Shown piece after piece: positions 621-41,878 of a DNA stretch of 41,878 bases. This DNA comes from Kiritimatiellia bacterium (GTDB lineage: Bacteria > Verrucomicrobiota > Kiritimatiellia > CAIQIC01 > Lenti-01): assembly GCA_017527155.1 (NCBI GenBank), contig JAFXQI010000009.1:1-41878 (forward strand), read 5' to 3'. Position 1 is the first letter of the stretch, and each line of letters begins with the position of its first letter. The position numbers and the translations under genes are program-made. The notes beneath the pieces were generated by a model. That model ran no database searches, was not told the origin of the DNA, and worked only from the letters and a program-made list of their open reading frames with translations.

Positions 621-624
621 CCTT

Positions 625-737
625 CCCGTCTTCAGGGCGTGGTGCAATTCCCGACCGGCGGTGAGAGTCCGCGAGCCACTTGTGGCCGACAAGGTGCGAT
701 TCCTTGACCGACAGTAGAGTCTGGATGGAAGAAGGCA
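625..737 (+). promoter_or_regulatory. FMN riboswitch (RFN element)
   Basis: The segment carries the conserved RFN blocks in order: AGGGCGTGGTGCAATTCCC then ACCGGCGGTGAGAGTCCGCG, a variable hairpin, GGTGCGATTCC, then CCGACAGTAGAGTCTGGATG. The P1 stem closes TCTTC (629-633) with GAAGA (728-732). It precedes ribBA with an 84-base spacer that can hold the expression platform. FMN riboswitches shut down riboflavin genes when FMN is plentiful. Here the downstream operon also holds nusB and ftsY. Confidence 0.96.
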
Positions 738-821
738 CGGCGGCGCGTCCGCCATCCCCACTTCCAGCCGGCCAGACGGGGGGCGCCGCATCCGGGGGAC
801 GGAAAGGCATCGGAAACCACA

Positions 822-21218: not shown

Positions 21219-21247
21219 TTGACGCGCAGTGTCTTGGCAACTATATT
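21219..21247 (+). promoter_or_regulatory. Strong promoter for the DUF4143 ATPase gene
   Basis: TTGACG (21219-21224), a 17-bp spacer and TATATT (21242-21247) are near consensus and end 34 bp before the ATG at 21282. The TTG inside the -35 box opens an in-frame extension that cannot be translated from this promoter. Confidence 0.75.
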
Positions 21248-21281
21248 CACGGCGAATTTCGATTCCGATTCCAGATTTGCC

Positions 21282-22547
21282 ATGAAATACACTCCCCGCG
21301 CCATCGAACCCCACCTCCGCCGCCTCGCCGCCGCCCACAAGGCCGTCCTCGTCACCGGCGCTCGCCAGGTCGGAAAATCCACGCTGCTGCGCCATCTCTT
21401 TCCCGACCGCCGCTACGTCACGCTCGACGACCCCTTCCTGGAGGAACAGGCCAAAACCGACGGACGCTTCTTCCTCTCGCTCAACCCGCCGCCCGTCACC
21501 GTGGACGAAATCCAGCGCGCGCCGGAGCTGTTCCGCCACGTCAAGATGCTGTGCGACGAATCGGACGCTCCCGGACAGTTCCTCCTGACCGGCTCCCAGC
21601 CCTACCACCTCATGCAGGGCGTTTCGGAATCGCTTTCCGGCCGCGTCGCGGTGCTGGAACTGCACGGCCTCTCCCTGCGCGAGCGCCGTTCCGATTCCTT
21701 CGCCGAACGATTCGTCCCCACCGAAGACTACCTCCGCCGCCGCGCCGCCACCGCCGCCCCGCTCGCGCCCGCCGACCTCTGGCGCACCATCCACCGCGGC
21801 TCGTTCCCCGGCCTCCCCGGCGACGCCCGCGACTGGTCCGCGTTCCATGCCGACTACCTCCGCACCTACGTCGAACGCGACGTCCGCGCCCTCGACGCCG
21901 TTCAGGACCTCTCCGCCTTCCGCCGTTTCGTGGTCGCGGCCGCCGCCCGCACCGGGCAGATGCTCAACCATTCCGCCATCGCCTCCGAAATCGGCAAGGA
22001 CCTCGGCACCGTGAAGCGCTGGATGTCGCTTCTGGAAGCGGCCGGACTCGTCATTCTGCTGGAAGCGTTCGCACCGTCGGCCCTGCGCCGCGCCATCCGC
22101 ACGCCCAAGCTCTACTTCCTCGACACCGGCCTCGCCGCCTACCTCACCCGCTGGCTCACCCCCGGGACCCTCGCCGCCGGCGCGATGTCCGGCCCGCTCT
22201 TCGAGACGTTCGCCGTCTCGGAAATCGTCAAGTCGTTCGCCAACGCGGGCCTCGACTGGCGGCACCATCTCTCCTACTACCGCGGCCGCGACCGCCGCAA
22301 ACTCACCCGCGGCGGCACCGAGCGGGAGGTCGAATCGGAAATTGACCTCGTCATCGAGGAAGACGGCGTGCTCTACCCCGTCGAAATCAAGCGCTCCTCC
22401 TCCGTCACGGCCGACGCCGCGGCGGCGTTCCCGACCCTCGACGCGGTGTCCGGCCGGACGCGCGGCACGGGTGCGGTGCTCTGCCCCTGTCCGCAACCCG
22501 CGCGGCTCCGCGACAACCTCTACGCCGTCCCAATCTGGTACGTCTAG
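21282..22547 (+). CDS. AAA ATPase with DUF4143 C-terminal domain
   Basis: This 421-residue protein has the AAA_14/DUF4143 layout. The N-terminal segment MKYTPRAIEPHLRRL is typical; the Walker A motif is GARQVGKST (26-34), Walker B is VTVDEIQ (72-78), and the sensor is LLTGSQ. A winged-helix-like middle follows (MLNHSAIASEIGKDLGTVKRW). The DUF4143 part contains KLYFLDTGLAAYL and a restriction-endonuclease-like motif E-IDLVI-EEDGVLYPVEIKRS (about 355-375). Such genes are abundant, mobile and often solitary in gut bacteria and archaea. A link to defence or toxin-antitoxin behaviour is suspected for the family but unproven. Repeats upstream and its own promoter fit recent acquisition. The open frame upstream of 21282 is not used. 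Confidence 0.88.
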   Translation: MKYTPRAIEPHLRRLAAAHKAVLVTGARQVGKSTLLRHLFPDRRYVTLDDPFLEEQAKTDGRFFLSLNPPPVTVDEIQRAPELFRHVKMLCDESDAPGQFLLTGSQPYHLMQGVSESLSGRVAVLELHGLSLRERRSDSFAERFVPTEDYLRRRAATAAPLAPADLWRTIHRGSFPGLPGDARDWSAFHADYLRTYVERDVRALDAVQDLSAFRRFVVAAAARTGQMLNHSAIASEIGKDLGTVKRWMSLLEAAGLVILLEAFAPSALRRAIRTPKLYFLDTGLAAYLTRWLTPGTLAAGAMSGPLFETFAVSEIVKSFANAGLDWRHHLSYYRGRDRRKLTRGGTEREVESEIDLVIEEDGVLYPVEIKRSSSVTADAAAAFPTLDAVSGRTRGTGAVLCPCPQPARLRDNLYAVPIWYV

Positions 22548-22593: not shown

Positions 22594-23259
22594 CTAGAAG
22601 AGAGCGCCCATGCCGACGAAGAAGCGGTTGCCGGCCATGTCGAGTTCGCTTTCGGGATGGGACCCGTCGGCTCGGTAAACGTAGTTTTCGCAGACGATGT
22701 CGATTTTCCCGAATTCGCGACGGTATTCTGCAAAAAGGAATATATGTTCATATACACGCCAGCGGGCACCGGCAAAGAGGCTGCAGGTGCCAACCAACTG
22801 ATCCTGATGCCACTTGTCTCCGCCGTAGAGGCCGTAATCGTCCTTGTAGTCGAGATCGAACCCGTGAACCGTGCCGCCGCCACCGGCGTAGAAGGTGAGG
22901 GCGCTGGAAATGCGTAGGGGGACATAGAGGTCGAGACCGAACTGCCGATCGTCGGCCTTGCATTCCGTGTCGTCCATCATGGCCCAGGCGAGGGAAAAGG
23001 TTCCGCCGATGCCGACATGGGCTGTGGAATTGACATATTCACCGCCGAAAGCGAATCCGCCGCCGTGCATGGGTTTGCCAAGATCCTTGACCTTGAATTG
23101 GGTGTAGTAGAACTGTCCGAAGCCGAAGCCTTCCTTCTGCCACCATTGGTTTTCGGTGAAATCGGGGGAGGACACGGAGGAGACACCCGGCTGGGCCAGG
23201 GTGGCGGTGGCGGCGACAAAGGCGACAAGGCCCGCCAGAGGGAGAGAGAAGCGTTTCAT
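22594..23259 (-). CDS. Small outer-membrane beta-barrel protein
   Basis: The 221-residue protein starts at ATG 23259 with AAAGGA upstream and a signal peptide (MKRFSLPLAGLVAFVAATATLAQ, cleavage near residue 22). The mature part shows alternating amphipathic strands rich in Gly, Tyr and Phe (GFGFGQFYYTQFKV, HGGGFAFGGEYV, GIGGTFSLAWAMMD, FYAGGGGTVHGFDLDY, FAGARWRVYEHIFLFAEYRREF) and ends in a terminal aromatic residue (RFFVGMGALF), as expected for a BAM-assembled barrel of about 8 strands. Function is unknown. It is the last gene of a six-gene co-directional cluster of lipoproteins, 17 bp from its neighbour, so it is a plausible outer-membrane partner of them. Confidence 0.72.
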   Translation of the reverse strand: MKRFSLPLAGLVAFVAATATLAQPGVSSVSSPDFTENQWWQKEGFGFGQFYYTQFKVKDLGKPMHGGGFAFGGEYVNSTAHVGIGGTFSLAWAMMDDTECKADDRQFGLDLYVPLRISSALTFYAGGGGTVHGFDLDYKDDYGLYGGDKWHQDQLVGTCSLFAGARWRVYEHIFLFAEYRREFGKIDIVCENYVYRADGSHPESELDMAGNRFFVGMGALF

Positions 23260-23276
23260 TCGTGGTTCCTTTCTGT

Positions 23277-24281
23277 TCAGTTTTTGTAAATCATGGCGAC
23301 GGAAACGGCCCATTCCCGGTCGGCGGCGGCTTCGAGGAGAGCGCGGTCCTCGGCATTGCGGATGGCCTCCGGCCCCTCCGCCGCGGGAGCAAAGCGCACG
23401 GTCCCCTCGACGGACGACTCGCCGTTCGCGACGGCGGCGAGGTTGAACACGGCCTCTTTCCGGCCCTCCTCGACGGCGATGGTCTCGACGTAGCCCAGCG
23501 ACGGGAGTCGCAAGGTCACGGTGTAGGGGCCGGACACCCGGCGACGGGTCTGGGACACCTTCGACTCCACCGGAGTCGGCTCGAGCTTCTCGGGGTCTCC
23601 GATGACGTAGGTGCAGTACTTGTGGAAGCCGAAGAATCCAGCGTGGGAGCAACTGCTGGCAATTTCCCGCTGGGGGTGTGCCTTCTCATCCTGCCAAGTC
23701 CAAGCCCCGATCCGCTCTCGATCTTCGGCGGAGAACTTGGCCAACAGGCGTGTCTTGCCGTCTTGGGCAAGCATCCAATGGTGGGTGGAGCATTCATATT
23801 TTCCAAAGAACGGCACGCACAGCAGGGAGTTGGGTAGCATAAGAATCCCAAACAGCATCATTTTTGCGGCTTCATCGTTGGAGTTGGATTGGTAGTGTCC
23901 CCCGCCCGTGTGCGTCCAGCCCGCCAGAGGCATGAGGGAGTTGCGGGGGCGATAAATGGATTCGGCCTCTCCCGGAAAGATGCCGAAGGCCAGGCGTTTG
24001 CATTTTTCGAGGGAGACTTTTTCGTGGTGCAGCACCTGGGGTTGCACGCTGGTGACCACGCCGGCCAGGCCGATGGCCACGGACCCGTCCTGGGCGTCGG
24101 CGGGGGTCACGGCGGGCTCGGGTTCATAGGACTTCTCGGGGAGGTCCCAGGCGGCGCGCACGTCGGTGGAATACTCGGTGGTGAACGTTTCCGATCCCAC
24201 CGGGAAGGAGACGCAACCGGCACAAAGCCAGGTGGCGGCGGCAATGGCCGTGAGGCAGGGGGCGGGGAGGGTGCTTTTCAT
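23277..24281 (-). CDS. Lipoprotein of unknown function, paralogue of upstream gene
   Basis: The 334-residue protein begins with a lipoprotein signal (MKSTLPAPCLTAIAAATWLC, then AGC with C23 as lipidation site). It is clearly related to the product of 24334-25821. Shared blocks in the same order are VAIGLAGVVTSVQ, KRLAFGIFPGEAES, a hydrophobic stretch before CVPFFGKYECS, the HAGFFGFHKYCTYVIGDPE segment, and GPYTVTLRLPSLGY followed by AVFNLAAV. It lacks the long C-terminal extension of the paralogue. A hydrophobic segment near residue 145 (MMLFGILMLPNSLLCVPFF) could insert in a membrane. I do not recognise a named family. ATG 24281 has AAAGGAAC upstream; the gap to the upstream gene is 52 bp. 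Confidence 0.7.
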   Translation of the reverse strand: MKSTLPAPCLTAIAAATWLCAGCVSFPVGSETFTTEYSTDVRAAWDLPEKSYEPEPAVTPADAQDGSVAIGLAGVVTSVQPQVLHHEKVSLEKCKRLAFGIFPGEAESIYRPRNSLMPLAGWTHTGGGHYQSNSNDEAAKMMLFGILMLPNSLLCVPFFGKYECSTHHWMLAQDGKTRLLAKFSAEDRERIGAWTWQDEKAHPQREIASSCSHAGFFGFHKYCTYVIGDPEKLEPTPVESKVSQTRRRVSGPYTVTLRLPSLGYVETIAVEEGRKEAVFNLAAVANGESSVEGTVRFAPAAEGPEAIRNAEDRALLEAAADREWAVSVAMIYKN

Positions 24282-24333
24282 GGGGTGTTCCTTTCTGTTG
24301 GGGTTCCGTTTCCTGAATCGTCGTGGCAGGGAG

Positions 24334-25821
24334 TCATTGGAGGGCCTCGAACTCGACTGTGAGGAGTCCATCTTCGAAGCGCTCCTGGCGGCTGCGGTAG
24401 GTCGCGCCGGGCGGCGGAGCCTTGCCGACCTCGAGCGCCACGTTCTTCTCCGCGACGATGGCGGAAATGTTGTCGCGGGCCCAGGACTTGGCCTCGGCGG
24501 CGGGCATGCCGCCGGTGATGCGGAGACGGACCCATCCGCGGCGGGATTCCGGATCGTAGTGCCAGCCATCCTCGACCGGGCGTGCGGAGAAGGCGCGTCC
24601 CTCGCACATCAGGGTCCGGCCGGCGTTTTCGGTGACGAAGCGGAGGTTTTCCCTGATGGTCTGCGGGGACTCACCCGGGTGGCGGGAGAGGAAATCCTGG
24701 CGCACCAGATCGCGCACTTCCGCCTCGACGAGGCGACGGATGTCGAAGGTGCGCGTCGTGTCGAGGATTTCCACGCACACGGTGTAGAAACCACCGTCGC
24801 CGGGCTGGATGCCGGTGACTTTGTAGGGGCGTTGCGGCGGGGTCGGGGCTGGGGTCGAGGCGGGGGCGGAGACGGAGACGGGGATGCGGATGACGGTGGG
24901 TGCGGGAGGAGGCTTGGGCGGCGGCGGGGCCCGGAGCGTGACGTCGAAGGAATGGCTCTCCGCGGCGGCCTTGCCCAGAGCCAGGCCCACCCAAGGTTCG
25001 GAGGCGGCGGCTGGGCTCTGGACGGGCCTGAAAGAGACGAAGGCGCGGACGGTCCGGTCCCGGGTCACGGCGGGCAGGGAGAACACGGCCGTTCCGTCCC
25101 TCCCGGAACGTACCGGCGCGGGGCGGTGGCCGAGATCGGGAATGGAAAACTCGATTTCAAACGGTCCCGGGACGGCGACGGCCGTCCGGGTACGGACATG
25201 GGGCGGCTCGGCGCGGAAGGGGCCGTCCACGGGGCCTTCACGGACGCTCACCGTGTACTTGTGGATGCCGAGAAGGCCCACGTGCGCGTAGGCGTTGAGG
25301 TTCTTCGACTTCGTGCAGTCGTAGGACCCGAACGGCCCTTCCAGCAGGAGTGCATGGAGGGTTCCCAGGGGGACGAACGGGAGGCCCACGGCGAATGCCG
25401 CCGGGTAGCCGCGCGGGAAACACGCCGGGGGGTCCGCCCCGACCGGCGCGCAGTACTGCTCCGCCGCTGCCGGAAAAAAGCCGAAGGACAGCCGGCGCTG
25501 TTTCGTGATGGTTGTCGTCTGCTCGTGGCTGGTCCGCTCGTACTCCTCGCGCACGTCCGCCACCAGCCCGACCGAAACCGCCTGCGCCCCGGCCGGCGCA
25601 TGCGTCATCTTCACGGCCGTCACCTCGGACCGCGAAGGGGAGCAGGCCGTATTGTGGATGGTACGCGTCTGCCGTTCCACGACCGGAGCCCCCACGTCCA
25701 CCGCACGGCACCCGCAGAGTAGCAACAACGCCGCCGCCACCCTCGCCGCCGCGGCGAAAAGCGACCTTCCCGCCCGTGCCGGGCGGTCAGCGGGGGCTCC
25801 CGTTGGACTCGGTCGGCGCAT
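24334..25821 (-). CDS. Lipoprotein of unknown function with extra C-terminal domain
   Basis: The 495-residue protein has a basic N-terminus of about 27 residues, a hydrophobic core and a lipobox-like LLLLCGC (C38). The N-terminal half shares ordered blocks with the product of 23277-24281: VSVGLVADVREEY, RRLSFGFFPAAAE, GSYDCTKSKN, HVGLLGIHKYTVSV and GPFEIEFSIPDLGH. After residue about 285 come a Pro-rich linker (PPPPKPPPAP...) and a C-terminal domain of about 160 residues (DIRRLVEAEVRDLVRQDFL, TLMCEGRAF, WVRLRITGGM). That domain loosely recalls LPP20/FlgT-type lipoprotein folds; this is weak inference. The ATG at 25821 lies 4 bp after the stop of the preceding gene, so the two are co-translated. 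Confidence 0.68.
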   Translation of the reverse strand: MRRPSPTGAPADRPARAGRSLFAAAARVAAALLLLCGCRAVDVGAPVVERQTRTIHNTACSPSRSEVTAVKMTHAPAGAQAVSVGLVADVREEYERTSHEQTTTITKQRRLSFGFFPAAAEQYCAPVGADPPACFPRGYPAAFAVGLPFVPLGTLHALLLEGPFGSYDCTKSKNLNAYAHVGLLGIHKYTVSVREGPVDGPFRAEPPHVRTRTAVAVPGPFEIEFSIPDLGHRPAPVRSGRDGTAVFSLPAVTRDRTVRAFVSFRPVQSPAAASEPWVGLALGKAAAESHSFDVTLRAPPPPKPPPAPTVIRIPVSVSAPASTPAPTPPQRPYKVTGIQPGDGGFYTVCVEILDTTRTFDIRRLVEAEVRDLVRQDFLSRHPGESPQTIRENLRFVTENAGRTLMCEGRAFSARPVEDGWHYDPESRRGWVRLRITGGMPAAEAKSWARDNISAIVAEKNVALEVGKAPPPGATYRSRQERFEDGLLTVEFEALQ

Positions 25822-25825
25822 CGGA

Positions 25826-26698
25826 TCAATTCTTCGCGTCCCGGAAGCGTTGCAAGGTTTCCTCGGGGAGCCGGTTGAGGAAATCCACGAGCGCCTTGCC
25901 GACGTGCCAGACGTCTTGTAGCCGGACCGTCCACCGGAAGGACGGATCGGTCTCCCGGTCCGATTGGTACACCGTGAAACGGCCCCGCGGCGTCACAACA
26001 TCGACGGCGGTTCCGCCCGGAACGGCCCGTTCCGTGCCCTCCACGGCGATTTGCCGCACCAGCTCGTCCTCCATCTGCGTGAAGGTCGTCTTGGGGATGG
26101 GCATTCCCTCGTCGTCCCGCAGGCCGGAGAGGTAGATCGTGACGTCGCGGACAGGGGGGGCCTTTCCGGGAAGCACCCGGTAGATGTCCGACACCACGCG
26201 AATGACAATCTTCCGTTCCGCGGGAAGCTTGTAGTCCCGGAACACGCTTGGATACATGGTCCTGATGAACGAATACTTGTCGAGTCCCTCCCATTTCTTC
26301 CCGGTGGCCATCATGAGTTCCTCGTCCTCCCGTCCCAGCTGTTTCCAAAAGAAGTCCTCGCCGAGGCGTTCCTCCAGAAAGGCATAGCGGGCCACCGCGA
26401 GGTCGCCCAAGGTGATGGTGGCCGGATCATACCCGTCCATGGCCTCCGCGATTCTCCCGCGAAAACCGTCATCAAGGTCGATCCACGGCGTGTCATCCCC
26501 GGAGTAGTGCTCGTCGAAATTTATCAGGGCGATTGACGGCAGGTGGTAAAGATGGAAAGGACCGGCCGCGGTCACGCGGGGGGAGGGTTCGATGTCGGCG
26601 GGATTGATGGTGGTCCACTGTGCCGGCAACTTCGTCACGCACCCGGAGCAGAGCAGCAGTCCGGCCAGGGGCACCAACGGCAAAGCGGAACGGTTCAC
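25826..26698 (-). CDS. Lipoprotein of unknown function
   Basis: The 290-residue product starts at GTG 26698, overlapping the upstream LpoB-like gene by 4 bp (GTGA), and has a lipoprotein signal ending in LLLCSGC (C20). The mature part is mixed alpha/beta: a conserved-looking HLYHLPSIALINFDEHYSGDD, a helical region with AVARYAFLEERLGEDFFWKQL, a strand KIVIRVVSDIYRVL, and a C-terminal strand-turn-helix (WTVRLQDVWHVGKALVDFLNRL). No family is recognised. Tight coupling to the LpoB-like gene and to the next lipoprotein suggests one complex at the outer membrane or wall. It may sense or bind an envelope component, but nothing in the sequence proves this. Confidence 0.68.
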   Translation of the reverse strand: MNRSALPLVPLAGLLLCSGCVTKLPAQWTTINPADIEPSPRVTAAGPFHLYHLPSIALINFDEHYSGDDTPWIDLDDGFRGRIAEAMDGYDPATITLGDLAVARYAFLEERLGEDFFWKQLGREDEELMMATGKKWEGLDKYSFIRTMYPSVFRDYKLPAERKIVIRVVSDIYRVLPGKAPPVRDVTIYLSGLRDDEGMPIPKTTFTQMEDELVRQIAVEGTERAVPGGTAVDVVTPRGRFTVYQSDRETDPSFRWTVRLQDVWHVGKALVDFLNRLPEETLQRFRDAKN

Positions 26699-27195
26699 GG
26701 CGTTCCCTCCTTGGCGATTTCGTCACTGCCGGTCCAGACGTCGAGATCGGCGGCGGTGTCGTGAAGGCGGAAGGTGACGCGGTGGGTGACACGGCGGCCG
26801 TCGGGCAGGTCGCGGTAGGCCCCGCGGAGAATGTAGTCGCACGCATCCGGATCGCCGGAAAGGATGAACCGTCCGCTGGCGCGCAGGGCCGTTTCGATGT
26901 CGTTGCGGAGCGCGTCGAGCGCGGTGGCGTTGCGGGTGGTCGAGAGATTTTCGATGTATGCCACCTGCAGCAACGGCGTCCCGCCGCGCGCTGCCACCTT
27001 CGCCGCGTAGTGCCGGGCGAACACCGGGTCGGCCAGCATCGCGTTCACCAGCCGCTGGCCCGCGGGAACCGTCTCCGCCCGCGTGTACGCCGCCGTCGAT
27101 ACCGGGTTGTACGCCCCCGAATCCACGTACGGCCCCCTCGCGCACCCCGCCGCCAGGAACGAAATCCCCAACAGGCAAACCAACTCTCTTTTCAT
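26695..27195 (-). CDS. LpoB-like penicillin-binding-protein activator lipoprotein
   Basis: The 166-residue lipoprotein (signal MKRELVCLLGISFLAAGC, C18) resembles the LpoB family, outer-membrane lipoproteins that reach through the wall to activate class A penicillin-binding proteins. The family pattern is visible: a short N-terminal spacer, a helix with GQRLVNAMLADPVFARHY, a strand LLQVAYIENLSTTRN, the helix ALDALRNDIETALRASGRF, then CDYILRGAYRDLPDGRR, and a closing strand LDVWTGSDEIAKEG. LpoB of E. coli has a longer disordered linker, whereas here it is about 20 residues. ATG 27195 has AAGGAG upstream; the open frame before it encodes the GACAATT repeat. A genuine PBP1b-type partner is not present in the window. 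Confidence 0.75.
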   Translation of the reverse strand: MKRELVCLLGISFLAAGCARGPYVDSGAYNPVSTAAYTRAETVPAGQRLVNAMLADPVFARHYAAKVAARGGTPLLQVAYIENLSTTRNATALDALRNDIETALRASGRFILSGDPDACDYILRGAYRDLPDGRRVTHRVTFRLHDTAADLDVWTGSDEIAKEGTP

Positions 27196-27215
27196 TTCCG
27201 TCTCCTTCTGTTTCA

Positions 27216-27283
27216 GACAATTACGACAATTTCCGACAATTTTTTCCTTGTCGGAATTGTTTTTCAAAGTTGTCATAATTGTC
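27216..27283. repeat. AT-rich GACAATT inverted repeat
   Basis: GACAATT occurs three times on the plus strand (27216, 27225, 27235) and its complement AATTGT(C) follows. ACAATTTCCGACAA pairs with TTGTCGGAATTGT with one bulge, and an outer GACAATTA pairs with TAATTGTC. The 68 bp lie in the 98-bp gap before the LpoB-like gene and could act as a hairpin in the mRNA. Confidence 0.8.
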
Positions 27284-27293
27284 GTGAATAATC

Positions 27294-28556
27294 TCACTCC
27301 GCCAGCTTTCCCGCACGGTCCAGCAGCTGCTCCGTCGAGGGCCCCGCCGACACGTTCATCTCGCCCGACGGCAACCCCAGCGACGGCAGCGACGCGTTCT
27401 GCAACGAAACCGACTGCGGCATCCCCTCGATGCGCGTGTGGCTGGTGGTCAGGTACTGGCCGTAGCCCCGGGCGACAATCTCGCGCACGAGGTCGTCGGT
27501 CGCCCCGCTCTTCTCCATGCGGTCCATCGTCGCGGCGAAGAGGGCGTCCTTCTTGCGCAGGGCATTGCCTTCCGCGGTGAGCGCCAGATGGATTTCAAAG
27601 GTGGTTTCGTCCTGGACCTTGACCACATCCTTGAACCCCACCAGTCCCGGATACGCCACTTCGAGGTTGTGCAGCCCCTTCGTGACGGCAAATGCCCGCG
27701 CCTCCGGCCCCGCCGTGCCGTAGCTCACGCCGTCGATCCGCACGTTCGCCCCGGGCACGTTCGCCGAGAAGGCCACCCGGACCGCATCCGCCGCAGGGGG
27801 CGGCACCGCGCCCGCCTTCGCGTACTCCTCCTGCAACGCTTTCGCGGCCGAGAACGCGGCCTCCTTCGCCACCTCGCTCCACGTATTCGCCGCCTTGCGC
27901 CCGAACGCCAGCGCGCTGGACTCCTTCTTGCTGCGGGCGGCGGCGGTCACCGACGCCACGCCCTCGCCGCCCGGTACCGCCTTTGCCGACAGCGTGAACT
28001 CCAGCACCGCCTGCACCCCCGGGTCCGTCCCTCCGATTTCCCGCACGCGGGCCGACGTCACCGACGCCGTCAGCAGCACCGGCGCATCCAGGTTCTCCGC
28101 CAGCCGCACCGCCGAACTCTCCGGCATCGTCTCCCCCCACGGCCCCGTGTTCTGTTCCGCGCCGATGGCGTCGTGCGGATTGACGACCGCGAAACTTCCC
28201 GCCCCCAGCGCCGTCTGCAGCCAATCGCCGAGCGTCGCGAGCGCGAACGGCGTCGCCGCCGCCCCCGTGTGGTTCTGGACAACCAAGACCGCCTTCGTCC
28301 GCGCCCCCTGCGGCACCGTTGCGGGAGCCGTTCGCACCTCCACCCCCGCCACCGAGGTCGCAACCGGCGCCGTCCCCACCGGCACCGGTACCGCCGTCGC
28401 CCCTGCCGCCGTCGCGGCCGGCAACGCCACCGGCTGGACCGCAATGGGCCTCGCCGGGATTGGCTCGGTTCCCGTGCGGCATCCCGCCGCGCAAAAAACC
28501 ATCCCCGCCAGCGCCAGCGCGCCCGCGATGCCCGATATCGCATGTCTTCTTTTCAT
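27294..28556 (-). CDS. CsgG-like lipoprotein with PEGA domain
   Basis: The 420-residue protein has a lipoprotein signal (MKRRHAISGIAGALALAGMV, then FCAAGC with C26) and an Ala/Pro/Val-rich linker to about residue 80. A region of about 85-240 resembles the CsgG/LpoB superfamily fold (TKAVLVVQNHTGA, a helix with LGDWLQTALGAGSF, ESSAVRLAENLDAPVLLTAS, VLEFTLSAKAV). A PEGA-type beta-sandwich follows (VAFSANVPGANVRIDGVSYG, then GLHNLEVAYPGLVGF). The C-terminal 85 residues contain the helix LRKKDALFAATMDRMEKS. CsgG proteins form outer-membrane export pores, but this protein could equally be a soluble-faced scaffold. ATG 28556 is preceded by GAAGGAGC. It is the first gene of the lipoprotein cluster. 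Confidence 0.68.
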   Translation of the reverse strand: MKRRHAISGIAGALALAGMVFCAAGCRTGTEPIPARPIAVQPVALPAATAAGATAVPVPVGTAPVATSVAGVEVRTAPATVPQGARTKAVLVVQNHTGAAATPFALATLGDWLQTALGAGSFAVVNPHDAIGAEQNTGPWGETMPESSAVRLAENLDAPVLLTASVTSARVREIGGTDPGVQAVLEFTLSAKAVPGGEGVASVTAAARSKKESSALAFGRKAANTWSEVAKEAAFSAAKALQEEYAKAGAVPPPAADAVRVAFSANVPGANVRIDGVSYGTAGPEARAFAVTKGLHNLEVAYPGLVGFKDVVKVQDETTFEIHLALTAEGNALRKKDALFAATMDRMEKSGATDDLVREIVARGYGQYLTTSHTRIEGMPQSVSLQNASLPSLGLPSGEMNVSAGPSTEQLLDRAGKLAE

Positions 28557-35131: not shown

Positions 35132-38100
35132 CTACCGGTCGAAGAAGGGGATGCGGAGGCGGTAGACGCGGGTGGAGGGGGTGCGGGGGGTGCGCCAGGT
35201 GGTGTTGGTGGAGGTCGCCTTGAGGGTCGCGGCACGGGTCCAGGCGGCCGGATTGGTGGTGAGCAGGGCGGAAAGGTCCGCGGATTCGATGTAGTAGGTG
35301 CCGCTGGGGACGCTCCGGAAGGTGTAGGTGGCGTTGGTGCCGGCAAAGGTCTGGTCTTTCCAGCCGACGTAGTCGTCGCCGGAGGTGGGGTCGGTCCCCG
35401 CCACCCACTCGGAGTAGTTGTCGAAGCCGTCGCCGTCGGGGTCGTCGCCGGATTGGGATTTTTCCTTGTAGGCGGGGGATTTGCGGCGGGCGATGTAGTC
35501 CCAGTCGTCGCCCACGCCGTTGTTGTCGGCGTCCCACGGGACGGTGATGGCGATGTTGGTGGTTGCGGTGGAGGCGCCGTCGGTGGCGGTGAAGGTGGCG
35601 GTGAGGTGGAGGTCGTCGGTGCGGCTGCCGTCGGACGGGGCGCCCATGGTCCAGGTGAACATGCCGGAGGTGGGGTCCCAGCCGGGGGTGCCGGACCAGT
35701 AGTTGCCCAGCGGCAGTTCGGTGGCTTCGACGGGCAGGGGGGTGCCTTGCCAGTCGGCGGCGGTGACGCGGAAGCTGGTGGTGGTGCCGACGGGGATGGT
35801 CTGGATGCCGGGAGGGGTGACGGAAATCGTCGGCGGGTCGTGGCGGGCGGTGCCGTTGGCGAAGGAGATGCCGTAGGCGAGGGAGCCGCTGCCGGTGACG
35901 TCGATCTGCCGGACCTGCGGGGCGTTGCGGAGGTTGACGGTGTTCCAGGCGGCGCCGTCGGGTTTGTCGGTGGCGGCGGTGTCGAGGGTGCCCTTGGTGA
36001 CGCGGAGGGTGGCGGTGACGGTGGTGGCGCCGCCGGAGGTGGTGAGGGCGAGTTGGTTGTCGCCGGGTTTTTCGGAGAGGCGGGCCTGTCCGCCGAGCAT
36101 GAGGGTGGCGAGGTCGGGGGAAAGGCCGTTGCGGACGCGCAGGGCCTTGCCGGCGGCGCTGTAGTTGACGGCGAGGGTGGCGGTGGCGGCGTCGGCGAGG
36201 GTGACGGTCTTGGTGAGGCCGCCGCTCTTGAAGGTGAGGCTGCCGGTGCCGGGGGTGACGGTGAAGATGTCGGCGACGGTGCTGGCGGTGCCGACGGCGA
36301 GGTCTTTCATGGCGGTGCCGCGGGTGGAGTCGGCGCCGGCGGACTGGGTTTCGTAGCCGGTCTCGGGCTGGGCGGCGAAGTTGCCGACCATCTGCCAGAC
36401 GTTGGTGCCGTCTTTGTACCAGGCGCCGGTCATGAGGCCGCCTTCGGCCTCGAAGAGGGCCATGACGGCGTTGTTGCGGAGGATGTACTCGTCTTCGCCG
36501 TCGAGGTCGACGTCGCGGGCGAAGGCTTCGAGCCCGGTGTTGCGCCCGGCCCAGTCGTCGACGGCGGCGTAGGCGGCGGCGAGGCGGGTGCGGGACTGGG
36601 CGCGCCAGGCCATGGACATGAGGCCCATCTGGCGGAATTTCCATTCCTGCGCCCAGTCGTCCCAGTACCAGCCGGTGGCGGGGTTGATGTATTCGCCGTA
36701 GGACCAGCGGGAGAGGTCGGAGTTGATTTCTTCGTGGAAGGCGGTCTCGAAGGCGGAGGCGAAGATGGTGGCTTCGGCGAGGGCCTTGACCTGCGCGTTG
36801 CGGATGCCCGAGACGGCGGCCCAGGCGTCGTGGAGGATGCCGTTGGTGCGGGTGCCCCAGACGGCGGCCATGGGCTGGCCCTGGCGGATCTCGAATTGTT
36901 TGCCGGAGAGGGTTTCGTGGCGGTCGGAGCCGTAGAACCAGTTGTCGTAGGTGCCGTTGCAGGCGTGGTGGACCCAGTCCTGCATGGCCATGCCGTTGGT
37001 GGAGGCGAGGTTGTGGTCGGCGTGGTTGCCGGAGAGGACGGGGTCGTCGAGGGCGGCGTCGAGGGTCACGACCTGGATCCAGGGGTGGTTGGCGATCCAG
37101 CGGAGGTTGCGGTCGTAGGCGTCGGCGTTTTCGGAGCCGGCGAAGTCTTCCCACATGTAGAAGATGGAGGAGATGGCGGGTTCGCCGGTGCGGGCGCGGC
37201 GCAGGAAGAGGCGGCGCAGGTCGCTCGCGAGGCCGCCGTCGGTGTTGGCGTAGCGGAAGCCGCTGGCGGCGGTGGAGAGGGCGAAGGCTTCGGCGCTCTT
37301 CCACTGGCCGGGGGAGGACTCGATCCAGTACTGCTGGATCTTGTAGGCGTCGTTGCCGAGGGCGGTCTGGCGGCCGAACCATTCGAGGAGGTGCGGGGTC
37401 TGGTCGACGAGGGTGGCGCGGTAGCCGAGGTTGCCGATGCGGAGGAACCAACCGGCGTCGGCGACGCGTTCGGGGGACCAGAGGACGGTTCTCGAGACGA
37501 CGTTGGAGCCGCCGCCGTAGATTTCGTCGAGGACGTCGCGGGCGCGCTCGACGTTGGCGGTGTTGAAGTCGTCGGGGAAGTAGAGGGGGATGTGGTCGGA
37601 GTAGGTGGAGCCGAGGAGGGCGAGGGCGCCGGAGGCGACGCCTTTCCTGATGGCGGCGTTGAGGGCGGGGCCGCTGTACCAGGCGTTTTCGGTGCCGACT
37701 TCGGCCCACTGGAGGGCGATGGCGAGGGTCGGGGTGACGTGGAGGTTCAGGGGGCAGTTGGTGTAGATGTTGTGGATCTGGATGGGGCGGTCGTAGCCGG
37801 CGCCGGCGCCGTTGTTGACGAGGGCCTGGATGGCGTTGCCGGGCTCGACGGCCTGGTTGCCGTGGGAGACCATGGCGAGCTTGGCGTGCTGGTTGCGGTT
37901 GTTCCAGGCGTGGTCGCTGGCGGTGCGGGAGACGCAGGTGGAGTAGAGGCCGTGCTGGTTGATGTAGTTCCAGTCGTTCCAGTAGTCGGAGCAGAGCCAG
38001 TCGTCGCCGATGGTGTCGGCGAAGTCGTTGAGGCCGCCCTTGTCGCCGGAGCCGCCGTCGTCGCTGGTGAAGTCGCGGGTGGTGTAGACCTGGAACATGA

Positions 38101-41100
38101 GTTTGTCGGGGTCCTGGAGGCGCCAGCCGGCGTCGACGAGGACCTGGCGGTCGATGGCCCAGACGACGGTGTCGAGCTCGGCGTTGAACCAGGCGCCGCG
38201 GAAGCCGCCGGTGGGCTTGCAGGCGGTGCCGTCCTGAACGTAGAGGCAGCCGTTCTGGGAGTCGTAGACGCCGGAGACGGCGTTCCACTTCATGGCGGTC
38301 TTGCAGTTGACGTCGTCGGGGAGGTCGTCGAGGCCGTTGCCGTAGTTGCCGAAGTTGATGGCGACGTAGACGTTGAGGGCGTTGTCTTCGGCGAAGGCCT
38401 GGAGGTCGTCGAAGTCGACGCGGAAGTAGAGGTTGCCGTCCTCGGCGCCGCCGTCGCGGAAGTAGAAGGCGACGATGTCGCGGGAGGAGTCGAAGCCGTC
38501 GCCGAAGCGGTAGATGTCGGCGGAGTTGCCGCCCTGGTTGTAGTCGTCGAGGGCGACGAGGTCGTCGAGGGTCCACTGGGTGGCCTCGGTGTAGAAGGCG
38601 TTGCCGTTGACGGAGCCGATGGGGTCGCCGGGGCCGACGGTGATGGCGCCGGCGACAACGGGTCCTTCGCGGTTGTCGCTGGAGCGGGGGTTGGTGCCGC
38701 CGAGGTATTCGGCCGCGTTGTCGTAGGGAATCTTCAGGCTGCCCTGGAGATAGGTGTCGTTGTCGGGGTTGCCGGAGGGGCCGTGGGTGGGGTCGTCGGT
38801 GAAGCGGCCGGTGCGGAAGTCGTAGACGCCGTTGTTGAGGGGGTCGAGCTGGTAGTTGGCTTCCCAGCCGTCGGGGAGGCCGTCGTGGTCGGTGTCGGCG
38901 CAGAGGGGGTCGGTCTCGGCGATGACGAGGCGCGGCCAGCCGTTGGTCTGCCTGGAGCCGGAGGCGCCGGCGGCGGGGTTGGTGACGTTGTAGGCGGCGA
39001 AGAGGGCGCCGTAGTCGATGGCGCGCGAACCGAGGGGTTTGGCCGCGAGGGTGGAGGCGGAGTTGGCGCTGGAGTTGTTGTCCACGAGCGCGCCGATGGC
39101 GGCGAGGTCGTCGGGGCCGAGCGGGACGACGGGGCCGTTCTCGGAGAAGACGAGGCCGATGTCGGTCCAGCCGTCGAGGTCGGTGTCTTCGCCGTAGCCG
39201 TCGGCGAGGCCGTCGGCGTCGGAGTCCCAGATGCAGGGGGAGGTTTCTTCCCAGGTTTCGCCGGCCATCTTGCCGTCGGGCCAGGCGCGGTCCCAGTAGG
39301 GGTCCCAGTCGCCGGGGAGGGGCGCGCCGTCGCCGTCGGTCCAGCCGTTGCGGTTGGCGTCCTCGACGCCGTCGGGGAGGCCGTCGCCGTCGCTGTCGGG
39401 GTTGCGCGGGTCGGTGGTGGAGCCCTTGACGAGGGCGAGGCGGTCGCCGCCTTCGGTGGAGGAGGTGACGCCGGGGACCTTGCCGTAGAGGCTCTCGCAG
39501 GAGTTGTAGAAGGGCGGGTCGCGGTCCCAGACGAAGTTCGGCCAGCCGTCGCCGTTGGTGTCGGTGGCGGGGTCGGTGCCGTCGGGGGCGGTGCGGTAGC
39601 CGAGTTCGAGGCCGTCGGGGAGGCCGTCGCCGTCGGAGTCGGGGCAGTCGGGGTCGGACTTGCCGGTGGAGTGGTAGTCGAAGATCTTCTCCTGCGTCCA
39701 GTACTCGGATTCGCCCGTGGGGATGCCGAGGTTCTCCTGCTCGCGCTTGTTGCCGGCGCCGTCGTCGTCCCAGTCCACGTCGTTGGTGGAGGCGTTGTGG
39801 ACGAGCTGGCGGAAGCGGATGGTGGCGGTGCGGAAGGCGCCGTTGGTGGGGACGGAGTACTTGCCGGAGGCGTTGTCGGCGGTGACGGTCGCCTGGATGC
39901 GGTAGGTGCCGGCGTTGGTCGCCTGCCAGGCGAAGGTCCACGCCTTGCTCGTGCCGTTGCTCTCGATGGAGACGGTGCGCAGGCAGTCGTTGGTCGGGCG
40001 GCTGGTCCACGTCGCGGAGATGGCGGCGCCGTACTCGGGCGGGGAGACGAACTGGAGGTCGAGGCGCGTCGCCTCGGCGTCGGTCAGCACCACGATGGGC
40101 GTCTCGCGCAGGGCGCGGTTTTCCGGCTTGGCGGCCTCGACGGAGTCCTCCATGGTGATGACGTACTTGACGCCGTCGCTGTCGGTCTCGGGCGGGGTCG
40201 TGATGATGCACGTCGGGAGGAGCGGGCCCTTGTGGGTGACCATGCGGGTGACGGACTTGGAGTAGCCGGCGTTCTCGAACTCGACGGTCAGGGCGTAGCG
40301 CCAGCCGTCGATGCCGTTGTAGACGTTGGGCATGTTGAAGGTGACCTGGTTGAAGGCGTCGCCGCTCCCCTCCCAGGGCTTCCAGTGGTGCGTGAGGTTG
40401 ATGTCGCCGTTGGCCACCTGCTCGCCGCGGTTGGTGCTGCCGTTGGAGGTGGCGTTGACGTAGACGCGGAACTTCGACGCGGCTTCCTCGTCGTTCAGGC
40501 CGGAGACCATGCGCTGGGTGAAGTTCACGCGGACTTCCCAGCCGGCTTCGACCATCGTGCCGTCCTGGTCGGGCCAGTCGATGTACAGGATTTCGGCGGG
40601 GCCGCGCGTGTCGGCGACCTTCTTGAGCTCGGCGACGTGCAGGGCTTCCAGGTCGTCCTTCGCGGGGTCGGTCTTGGACCACGATTCGACGGGCGCGGAC
40701 GAGACTTCGCGCAGGCGGACGCGGATGGTCGCGGTGCCGCTGCTCGGGATGCGGCTGTAGGTCCAGCGCCAGATCTTGGTCAGTTCGGTGTCCTGCGCGT
40801 CTTCCTTGGTCCAGGGCGAGATCTGGGTCGCACGGGCCCATTCGACGCCGTTGGTGGTGGAGCCGTTGCCGACCGTGTCGTTGGAGTCGTCGGAGTCGGT
40901 GACGTGCACCCAGACTTCGTCCACGGTGTTGTCGGTCTTGAAGACCATGCCGTACTCGGTCTCGGTGAAGGTCGGCCGCGTCTCGGCGGGGTACATGAAC
41001 TTGCCTTCGGGCGTGTGCAGGTCGAGGTAGAACGTCTGCCGGAAGGTGTTGGCGATCTCGGCGCCGTCGGTGCGGTTGAGGAGCATGCGGGCGGTGACGA

Positions 41101-41878
41101 GGTGGAAGCCGTCCTTGAAGCCGTTGGTCCAGCTCGTGTAGTCGTTGTGCTTGTGGTACTGCTGGGTGGTGAAGTCGAGGCCGGGGACGGTCCAGAGGCT
41201 CATCATGACCTTCTTGTCGCGGATCGCGTCGGCGTTGCCGGGCCAGACGGTGCCCCAGCCGTTGCCGCCGTAGCCCATTTCGCGGAAGGCGGACACCTTG
41301 TAGCGGAGGGTCGCGCCGGAGGGCACGGAGCCTTCGGGGAGGTCGAAGCGCCACCAGCTGCCGGACTCGGTGTCGCACTGCCAGCCGCCTTCGACCGCGC
41401 GGGTCGCGGAGTTCGCGGGGACGCCGCCGCCGCCTTCGGGCCAGTGCTCGCCGTCCACGGTGTAGTACAGGAACGCGCGGGCGCCCTGGGCGTGGGCGGT
41501 CTTGGCCCACACCGTCGCGGACGTGCCGGTGCGGGAGAACTGCGGCTGCACGCCGTAGTCGCGGTCGTCGCCGCCGCCGCCGCCGGGGGTTATCGTGCCC
41601 GTTCCGCCGCCGGTGTTGCCGCCGGTGCCCGGAGTGTCTGTGCCCGGGGTGTCTGTGCCTGGAGTGTCTGTGCCCGGTGTGTCGGTGCCTGGAGTGTCGG
41701 TGCCGGAGCCGCCGCTGCCGGAACCGCCGTCTGCTGCGCTGCCGCTGCCTGCGAAGACTACCTTTTCGTAGTAGTTCACGTCCTCAATCATCTGTTGCAG
41801 CAGGGTGTTGTAGCGCTGCTGTTCGTCGGTCAGGGCGTAGGCATTGGCAATCATGAGCAGGTGGGCGTACTCGTTGTC
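35132..41878 (-). CDS. Giant secreted multidomain protein with GH57-like barrel (5' partial)
   Basis: The frame is open to the window edge, so the N-terminus is missing; an internal ATG at 41854 is not the start. About 2,248 residues are visible. In order: a helical segment; a Gly/Ser and five-fold GTDTP linker (about residues 42-90, from a 15-bp DNA repeat); beta-rich modules (90-720); a run of calcium-type repeats such as DPDCPDSDGDGLPDG and DADGLADGYGEDTDLDGW (735-1000); a glucodextranase-like module (about 1085-1260); and a probable GH57-type barrel (1350-1610) with NLHVTPTLAIALQW and WSPERVADAGW, whose Glu could be the nucleophile. Ig-like repeats follow, then a GFDNYSEWVAGTDPTSGDDY tail. 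It likely acts on a polysaccharide outside the cell. The GH57 call is tentative. Confidence 0.78.
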   Translation of the reverse strand, partial: DNEYAHLLMIANAYALTDEQQRYNTLLQQMIEDVNYYEKVVFAGSGSAADGGSGSGGSGTDTPGTDTPGTDTPGTDTPGTDTPGTGGNTGGGTGTITPGGGGGDDRDYGVQPQFSRTGTSATVWAKTAHAQGARAFLYYTVDGEHWPEGGGGVPANSATRAVEGGWQCDTESGSWWRFDLPEGSVPSGATLRYKVSAFREMGYGGNGWGTVWPGNADAIRDKKVMMSLWTVPGLDFTTQQYHKHNDYTSWTNGFKDGFHLVTARMLLNRTDGAEIANTFRQTFYLDLHTPEGKFMYPAETRPTFTETEYGMVFKTDNTVDEVWVHVTDSDDSNDTVGNGSTTNGVEWARATQISPWTKEDAQDTELTKIWRWTYSRIPSSGTATIRVRLREVSSAPVESWSKTDPAKDDLEALHVAELKKVADTRGPAEILYIDWPDQDGTMVEAGWEVRVNFTQRMVSGLNDEEAASKFRVYVNATSNGSTNRGEQVANGDINLTHHWKPWEGSGDAFNQVTFNMPNVYNGIDGWRYALTVEFENAGYSKSVTRMVTHKGPLLPTCIITTPPETDSDGVKYVITMEDSVEAAKPENRALRETPIVVLTDAEATRLDLQFVSPPEYGAAISATWTSRPTNDCLRTVSIESNGTSKAWTFAWQATNAGTYRIQATVTADNASGKYSVPTNGAFRTATIRFRQLVHNASTNDVDWDDDGAGNKREQENLGIPTGESEYWTQEKIFDYHSTGKSDPDCPDSDGDGLPDGLELGYRTAPDGTDPATDTNGDGWPNFVWDRDPPFYNSCESLYGKVPGVTSSTEGGDRLALVKGSTTDPRNPDSDGDGLPDGVEDANRNGWTDGDGAPLPGDWDPYWDRAWPDGKMAGETWEETSPCIWDSDADGLADGYGEDTDLDGWTDIGLVFSENGPVVPLGPDDLAAIGALVDNNSSANSASTLAAKPLGSRAIDYGALFAAYNVTNPAAGASGSRQTNGWPRLVIAETDPLCADTDHDGLPDGWEANYQLDPLNNGVYDFRTGRFTDDPTHGPSGNPDNDTYLQGSLKIPYDNAAEYLGGTNPRSSDNREGPVVAGAITVGPGDPIGSVNGNAFYTEATQWTLDDLVALDDYNQGGNSADIYRFGDGFDSSRDIVAFYFRDGGAEDGNLYFRVDFDDLQAFAEDNALNVYVAINFGNYGNGLDDLPDDVNCKTAMKWNAVSGVYDSQNGCLYVQDGTACKPTGGFRGAWFNAELDTVVWAIDRQVLVDAGWRLQDPDKLMFQVYTTRDFTSDDGGSGDKGGLNDFADTIGDDWLCSDYWNDWNYINQHGLYSTCVSRTASDHAWNNRNQHAKLAMVSHGNQAVEPGNAIQALVNNGAGAGYDRPIQIHNIYTNCPLNLHVTPTLAIALQWAEVGTENAWYSGPALNAAIRKGVASGALALLGSTYSDHIPLYFPDDFNTANVERARDVLDEIYGGGSNVVSRTVLWSPERVADAGWFLRIGNLGYRATLVDQTPHLLEWFGRQTALGNDAYKIQQYWIESSPGQWKSAEAFALSTAASGFRYANTDGGLASDLRRLFLRRARTGEPAISSIFYMWEDFAGSENADAYDRNLRWIANHPWIQVVTLDAALDDPVLSGNHADHNLASTNGMAMQDWVHHACNGTYDNWFYGSDRHETLSGKQFEIRQGQPMAAVWGTRTNGILHDAWAAVSGIRNAQVKALAEATIFASAFETAFHEEINSDLSRWSYGEYINPATGWYWDDWAQEWKFRQMGLMSMAWRAQSRTRLAAAYAAVDDWAGRNTGLEAFARDVDLDGEDEYILRNNAVMALFEAEGGLMTGAWYKDGTNVWQMVGNFAAQPETGYETQSAGADSTRGTAMKDLAVGTASTVADIFTVTPGTGSLTFKSGGLTKTVTLADAATATLAVNYSAAGKALRVRNGLSPDLATLMLGGQARLSEKPGDNQLALTTSGGATTVTATLRVTKGTLDTAATDKPDGAAWNTVNLRNAPQVRQIDVTGSGSLAYGISFANGTARHDPPTISVTPPGIQTIPVGTTTSFRVTAADWQGTPLPVEATELPLGNYWSGTPGWDPTSGMFTWTMGAPSDGSRTDDLHLTATFTATDGASTATTNIAITVPWDADNNGVGDDWDYIARRKSPAYKEKSQSGDDPDGDGFDNYSEWVAGTDPTSGDDYVGWKDQTFAGTNATYTFRSVPSGTYYIESADLSALLTTNPAAWTRAATLKATSTNTTWRTPRTPSTRVYRLRIPFFDR
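41624..41705. repeat. 15-bp tandem repeat encoding GTDTP units
   Basis: GTGTCTGTGCCCGG-type units of 15 bp recur about five times and encode, on the minus strand, the (GTDTP)n linker of the giant protein. Copy number may vary between strains. Confidence 0.9.

Follow-up and report, generated by a model that had tools for sequence, protein, structure and literature searches.

What would a run of lipoprotein genes that includes an LpoB-like member do in a bacterium of the class Kiritimatiellia? The question is posed by six genes (g1 to g6) that ORF calls place in one direction on the minus strand (28556-22594) of the 41,878-nucleotide stretch of DNA analysed here (the window; Table 1). We tentatively favour a reading in which they make up a second copy, rare and diverged, of an envelope operon that occurs throughout the class; this copy was probably acquired horizontally and would encode a scaffold for outer-membrane and wall assembly. 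Throughout, G000 denotes the window's genome, G001 a genome of the same genus, G002 one of the same family and G233 one from another family of the class.

Intergenic distances from g1 to g6 are 98, -4, 4, 52 and 17 bp, the negative value being a 4-bp overlap of the g2 stop with the g3 start. All six reading frames are intact, and g1 to g5 can be taken as real genes because homologues occur in an independent genome. Lipobox cysteines were found in g1 (AAG-C26), g2 (AAG-C18), g3 (CSG-C20) and g5 (CAG-C23), and in an atypical lipobox of g4 (LCG-C38); none of the five lipoproteins has Asp at position +2. The sixth product (221 aa) has no lipobox. An earlier note on this DNA had described six co-directional genes with an overlap, gaps and a hairpin-bearing 98-bp gap, and five lipoprotein signals followed by a barrel with a terminal Phe. 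Coordinates and RNA folding agree with the first description, and the lipoboxes of g1 to g5 and the barrel-like, Phe-ending g6 with the second. An AAA_14/DUF4143 ATPase gene (window 21219-22547, plus strand) is convergent with the cluster, and an ATPase of similar appearance is encoded near a g4 homologue elsewhere (L077:3261-4601).

Table 1. Features of the cluster, in window coordinates
Feature	Position	Strand	Description
g1	27294..28556	-	lipoprotein: CsgG/PelC/FlgT-fold N-domain (predicted) and PEGA domain
g1-g2 intergenic region	27196..27293	-	nested inverted repeats on GACAATT motif
g2	26695..27195	-	short LpoB-like lipoprotein
g3	25826..26698	-	lipoprotein, no family match; GTG start; adjoins g4 here and in G233
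g4	24334..25821	-	lipoprotein: Ig/FN3-like N-domain and new C-terminal domain (CTD)
CTD of g4	24337..24747	-	about 135 aa; may comprise two beta-alpha-beta-beta units
g5	23277..24281	-	lipoprotein; paralogue of g4 N-terminal domain without CTD
g6	22594..23259	-	small outer-membrane beta-barrel-like protein, signal peptide, C-terminal Phe

Folded as RNA, the 98-bp gap between g1 and g2 reached -30.9 kcal/mol (z -4.9), and none of 200 shuffles was equally stable. The gap holds three copies of a ACAATTNCGACAA-type repeat, one with a mismatch, against 0.04 expected in the window, and a pattern search of the relatives' loci returned no copies of the GACAATT motif. A terminator was rejected, the hairpin being terminator-like on the opposite strand only. 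The repeats are a possible operator, attenuator or processing hairpin.

Relation of the cluster to a class-wide operon

The same genome carries a canonical copy of the operon (G000:C35, locus L022), in which genes for a COG3014-like lipoprotein, a PEGA protein, YcfL (DUF1425), LpoB and an LA_2272-repeat protein all run in one direction. YcfL scored 84.5 bits with PF07233, LpoB scored 149.9 bits against a cut-off of 110.55, and the first gene is tentatively labelled COG3014-like. These genes recur, in varying order, in other genomes of the family and throughout the class. In the window cluster, the PEGA and LpoB-related genes are likewise close and co-directional. The PEGA domain of g1 (aa 264-327, about 27576-27767) scored 24.5 bits against a Pfam cut-off of 20.8, and a profile of the whole PEGA protein matched in 130 of 288 class genomes, the match in the weakest of them spanning little beyond the PEGA domain itself.

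The arrangement recalls the Enterobacteria, where ycfL directly precedes lpoB (E. coli b1104-b1105): the window cluster has an LpoB-related lipoprotein, and YcfL lies near LpoB in the canonical operon of the class. However, the window copy has a shortened LpoB and adds the PEGA protein, g3, a CTD lipoprotein, g5 and a barrel, and a UB2H partner for it was not found. Neither YcfL (DUF1425) nor LA_2272 was detected in the window copy with Pfam, NCBIfam or locus comparison; the VC2662/LA_2272 surface-repeat family thus belongs to the canonical operon of the class but is missing here. Our literature search found no paper on LpoB with DUF1425 or on LpoB with a PEGA domain.

The closest relatives of g1 and g2 were in G233, with 57% and 64% identity (the latter on G233:C68), against 46% and 31% in the same-family G002. 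In the same-genus G001, g2 to g6 were unmatched and g1 had only a weak match, at the canonical operon. Besides g1 and g2, G233 keeps the g3-g4 adjacency and g5, as seen on two contigs of one fragmented genome. The gene-neighbourhood comparison that the earlier note had proposed thus found the grouping again in other genomes, with the g3-g4 order and a g5 relative in G233. This subtype of the cluster was seen in two genomes, a rarity that may reflect sampling, as the searches cover species representatives; most of the genomes are fragmented assemblies. Together, sequence matches and gene order demonstrate that g1 and g2 share their ancestry with the canonical operon, and that CTD lipoproteins co-localize with PEGA/LpoB genes. 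These comparisons make the window cluster a paralogue, now diverged, of the recurrent LA_2272/YcfL/PEGA/LpoB operon.

The LpoB-related and PEGA lipoproteins

As g2 is related to LpoB, it could activate a class A PBP in the manner of LpoB, in which case the cluster would directly control peptidoglycan synthesis. The match to TIGR02722 (LpoB) had an E of 3e-7, but its 30.6 bits fall below the cut-off of 110.55, and the 19 bits with PF13036 (LpoB) also miss the cut-off of 22.3. Alignment and split profile matches indicate that about 35 residues are gone from the middle of the LpoB core, where helices are missing, and split LpoB matches in both the window and G233 mark this shortened form as common to the two. 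A PDB search with the g2 profile gave nothing significant, and no g2 relatives were found in viral contigs. The HMM comparison with the LpoB and CsgG families placed g2 as LpoB-related, with both LpoB cut-offs missed and no CsgG Pfam match for any of the six genes.

In E. coli, UB2H is the docking domain for LpoB, and PBP1B without UB2H loses crosslinking to LpoB (PMC3060616). No UB2H match at E<=0.001 was found in G000, a genome of 114 contigs, with a UB2H model that is weak at such distance. The genome does have one bifunctional transglycosylase/transpeptidase, which favours an activator, but this single class A PBP and sole transglycosylase detected (G000:C105; L128:1539-4277) is PbpC-like, with BiPBP_C. 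Moreover, G001 (96% complete) carries an LpoB gene within its canonical operon, yet no transglycosylase was detected in that genome, nor in three more family members. LpoB itself, under stringent cut-offs, has been described as restricted to enterobacteria (PMC3060616).

Because g2 scores below the LpoB cut-offs, no UB2H was found and the sole transglycosylase is PbpC-like, direct activation of PBP1b by g2 looks unlikely, and direct control of peptidoglycan synthesis by the cluster is a reading we likewise consider unlikely. For the wall-synthesis control proposed in the earlier note, a PBP1b-type partner was not found in G000. Across this class of Verrucomicrobiota, LpoB is encoded in an operon together with YcfL and a PEGA protein, in at least one genome with no detectable UB2H partner, which calls into question the role of LpoB-related lipoproteins outside Enterobacteria.

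The PEGA lipoprotein g1 raised the alternative of export. AF2 modelling of g1 (pLDDT 70.4 on average, with 80-96 for most of the core and about 55-66 along one stretch) predicted a CsgG-type alpha/beta fold for its N-domain (aa 85-251, about 27804-28304), which matched CsgG and PelC (both Z 13.7) and FlgT (Z 12.4). In sequence, g1 matched no CsgG or PelC family in Pfam or NCBIfam, and a PDB search with its profile gave no significant match. In the PelBC export complex, twelve PelC lipoproteins make a ring (PMC12141448), and g1 could form a comparable CsgG/PelC-like ring for polymer or protein export, the outer-membrane channel being supplied by g6 or an unlinked porin. However, structure comparison places LptE, TolB and GNA1162 in the same fold, so that a pore is not implied. 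Genes for a synthase, an export ATPase or a large porin are also missing from the cluster, whose barrel-like product g6 measures 221 aa. A PEGA domain and a helical tail set g1 apart from the PelC/CsgG/FlgT-M lipoproteins, and no curli, Pel or flagellar genes are found in the window cluster. We therefore hold an export ring to be quite unlikely: of the export pore in the earlier note, a predicted CsgG-type fold in g1 stands as its sole support, and that fold is common to many non-pore lipoproteins.

Profile comparison shows a weak relationship between LpoB and the PEGA proteins, and g1 and g2 appear to have a common CsgG/PelC/LpoB-type fold. At four loci (L084, L085, L095 and L096), some PEGA-family chains also match the LpoB profile, and a second PEGA gene adjoins.

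Accessory lipoproteins and the C-terminal domain of g4

The earlier note had matched three of the lipoproteins to no known family. Searches of Pfam and NCBIfam indeed gave no match above chance for g3, g4 and g5, but all three have relatives in G233, and g4 and g5 are paralogues with 29-35% identity across aligned stretches. For g3, a single-sequence search found no match among the 288 class genomes, and sensitive phmmer then ruled out an orphan: a collinear homologue lies directly upstream of the g4 homologue in G233 (L082:606-1436), the relationship being this one homologue at 27% identity, backed by synteny. The G233 homologue of g5 (L081:3224-4273, 33% identity) is likewise without the CTD. 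No clear homologue of g6 was found at the operon loci examined, its single weak match in the family lies on another contig, and its conservation does not follow the rest of the cluster. Its resemblance to the small barrels of OMP_b-brl (PF13505) consists of the terminal Phe and a weak match (E 3e-5, 24.7 bits) under the curated cut-off of 28.7.

In the AF2 model of g4 (pLDDT 84.6), the N-domain (aa about 66-300) is predicted to be Ig/FN3-like with an inserted hydrophobic helix pair. With VIA, the best matches of the g4 model were Ig-like domains at Z 7.7, a value under the tool's caution level that points to a common Ig-like sandwich only. Foldseek gave no match below 1e-3, and its hits to pore-forming toxins and complement (TM about 0.1 or below) were dismissed as an artefact of long strands.

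An iterated search from the g4 C-terminus gathered 35 open frames with differing N-terminal parts, including Ig-like ones and some that we labelled Sel1-like by eye. CTD lipoproteins, defined by a C-terminal domain of about 135 residues near PEGA/LpoB genes, include g4 and not g5. Across the class, the CTD profile gave 45 matches in 25 of 288 genomes, on 29 contigs. A PEGA gene lies on the same contig in 22 of the 29, and one further contig has a COG3014-like gene at its end. As the seed loci of the profile were partly picked near PEGA genes, the fairer figure comes from the non-seed contigs, where PEGA was present on 6 of 10, against about 1.6% per contig expected by chance from a simple size estimate. 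Neither Pfam nor NCBIfam contained a match for the CTD, and a PDB sequence search gave nothing credible, marginal hits to SufS (E about 0.04) being taken as chance. Profile comparison found the CTD unrelated to the LpoB and PEGA profiles. The two halves of the domain align with each other (hhalign P 2e-5, probability 77%), and the domain may therefore be a tandem duplication. Tandem expansion of CTD lipoproteins was also observed, with five consecutive genes in G281 (L085:8549-14684) and seven across two contigs in G233 (L081/L082).

What is genuinely new here is the recurrent g4 CTD, which lies outside the searched family libraries, and its linkage to PEGA/LpoB-type operons. To this extent the undescribed machine of the earlier note survives, whereas the overall arrangement is that of a recurrent operon in diverged form. 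A bolder reading takes CTD lipoproteins as a new diversifying outer-membrane module, in which a PEGA/CsgG-fold ring would present interchangeable lipoproteins via the duplicated domain, forming a machine unlike LpoB-PBP1b or known exporters; this we consider rather doubtful. Defined genes and one domain from outside those libraries are now available for testing.

Origin and possible assembly of the window copy

In the cluster GC3 ranges from 0.73 to 0.88, compared with 0.87-0.96 for those neighbouring genes that were measured in frame; the glgC and YihY rows, which are out of frame, are left out of the comparison. This lower GC3, the greater closeness to G233 than to G002 and the near-absence from G001 suggest a putative horizontal acquisition of the window copy. 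Alternatively, the cluster might be a paralogue that arose by duplication, is decaying or neutral, and persists by chance with no function of its own. Its presence in very few genomes would fit such a history, as would the missing YcfL and LA_2272, the shortened LpoB and a g5 with no CTD. Yet no frame is broken, and g2 retains its high identity across two families together with the same deletion, with the CTD-less g5 also common to both, which suggests purifying selection on such a form. We therefore regard neutral retention as improbable, the least probable of the readings weighed here.

For the assembly scaffold that we prefer, fold and gene linkage were computed and the lipid anchors read off lipoboxes, and from these we infer ring, contacts and role. 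Most likely, the cluster encodes a lipoprotein assembly that is anchored in the outer membrane and has an accessory module of variable make-up. In such an assembly, g1 and g2 would be held at the inner leaflet of the outer membrane, forming a ring or heteromeric scaffold there, from which g4 and g5 would project via their Ig-like modules. The g4 CTD could serve as a docking or specificity module, carried by lipoproteins that differ between genomes, and g6 may fix the assembly in the outer membrane. Its likely task would be to coordinate outer-membrane and wall assembly, rather than to activate PBP1b directly.

Elsewhere in the window, an FMN riboswitch (624-740, plus strand) scored 102.8 bits against a gathering threshold of 66.2, and the gene downstream of it (822-2048) is ribB/ribBA-like, a name read from the sequence with no search behind it. 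At the other end, a very long open frame of more than 2240 aa (35132-41878, minus strand; GC3 0.95) may extend past the window end.
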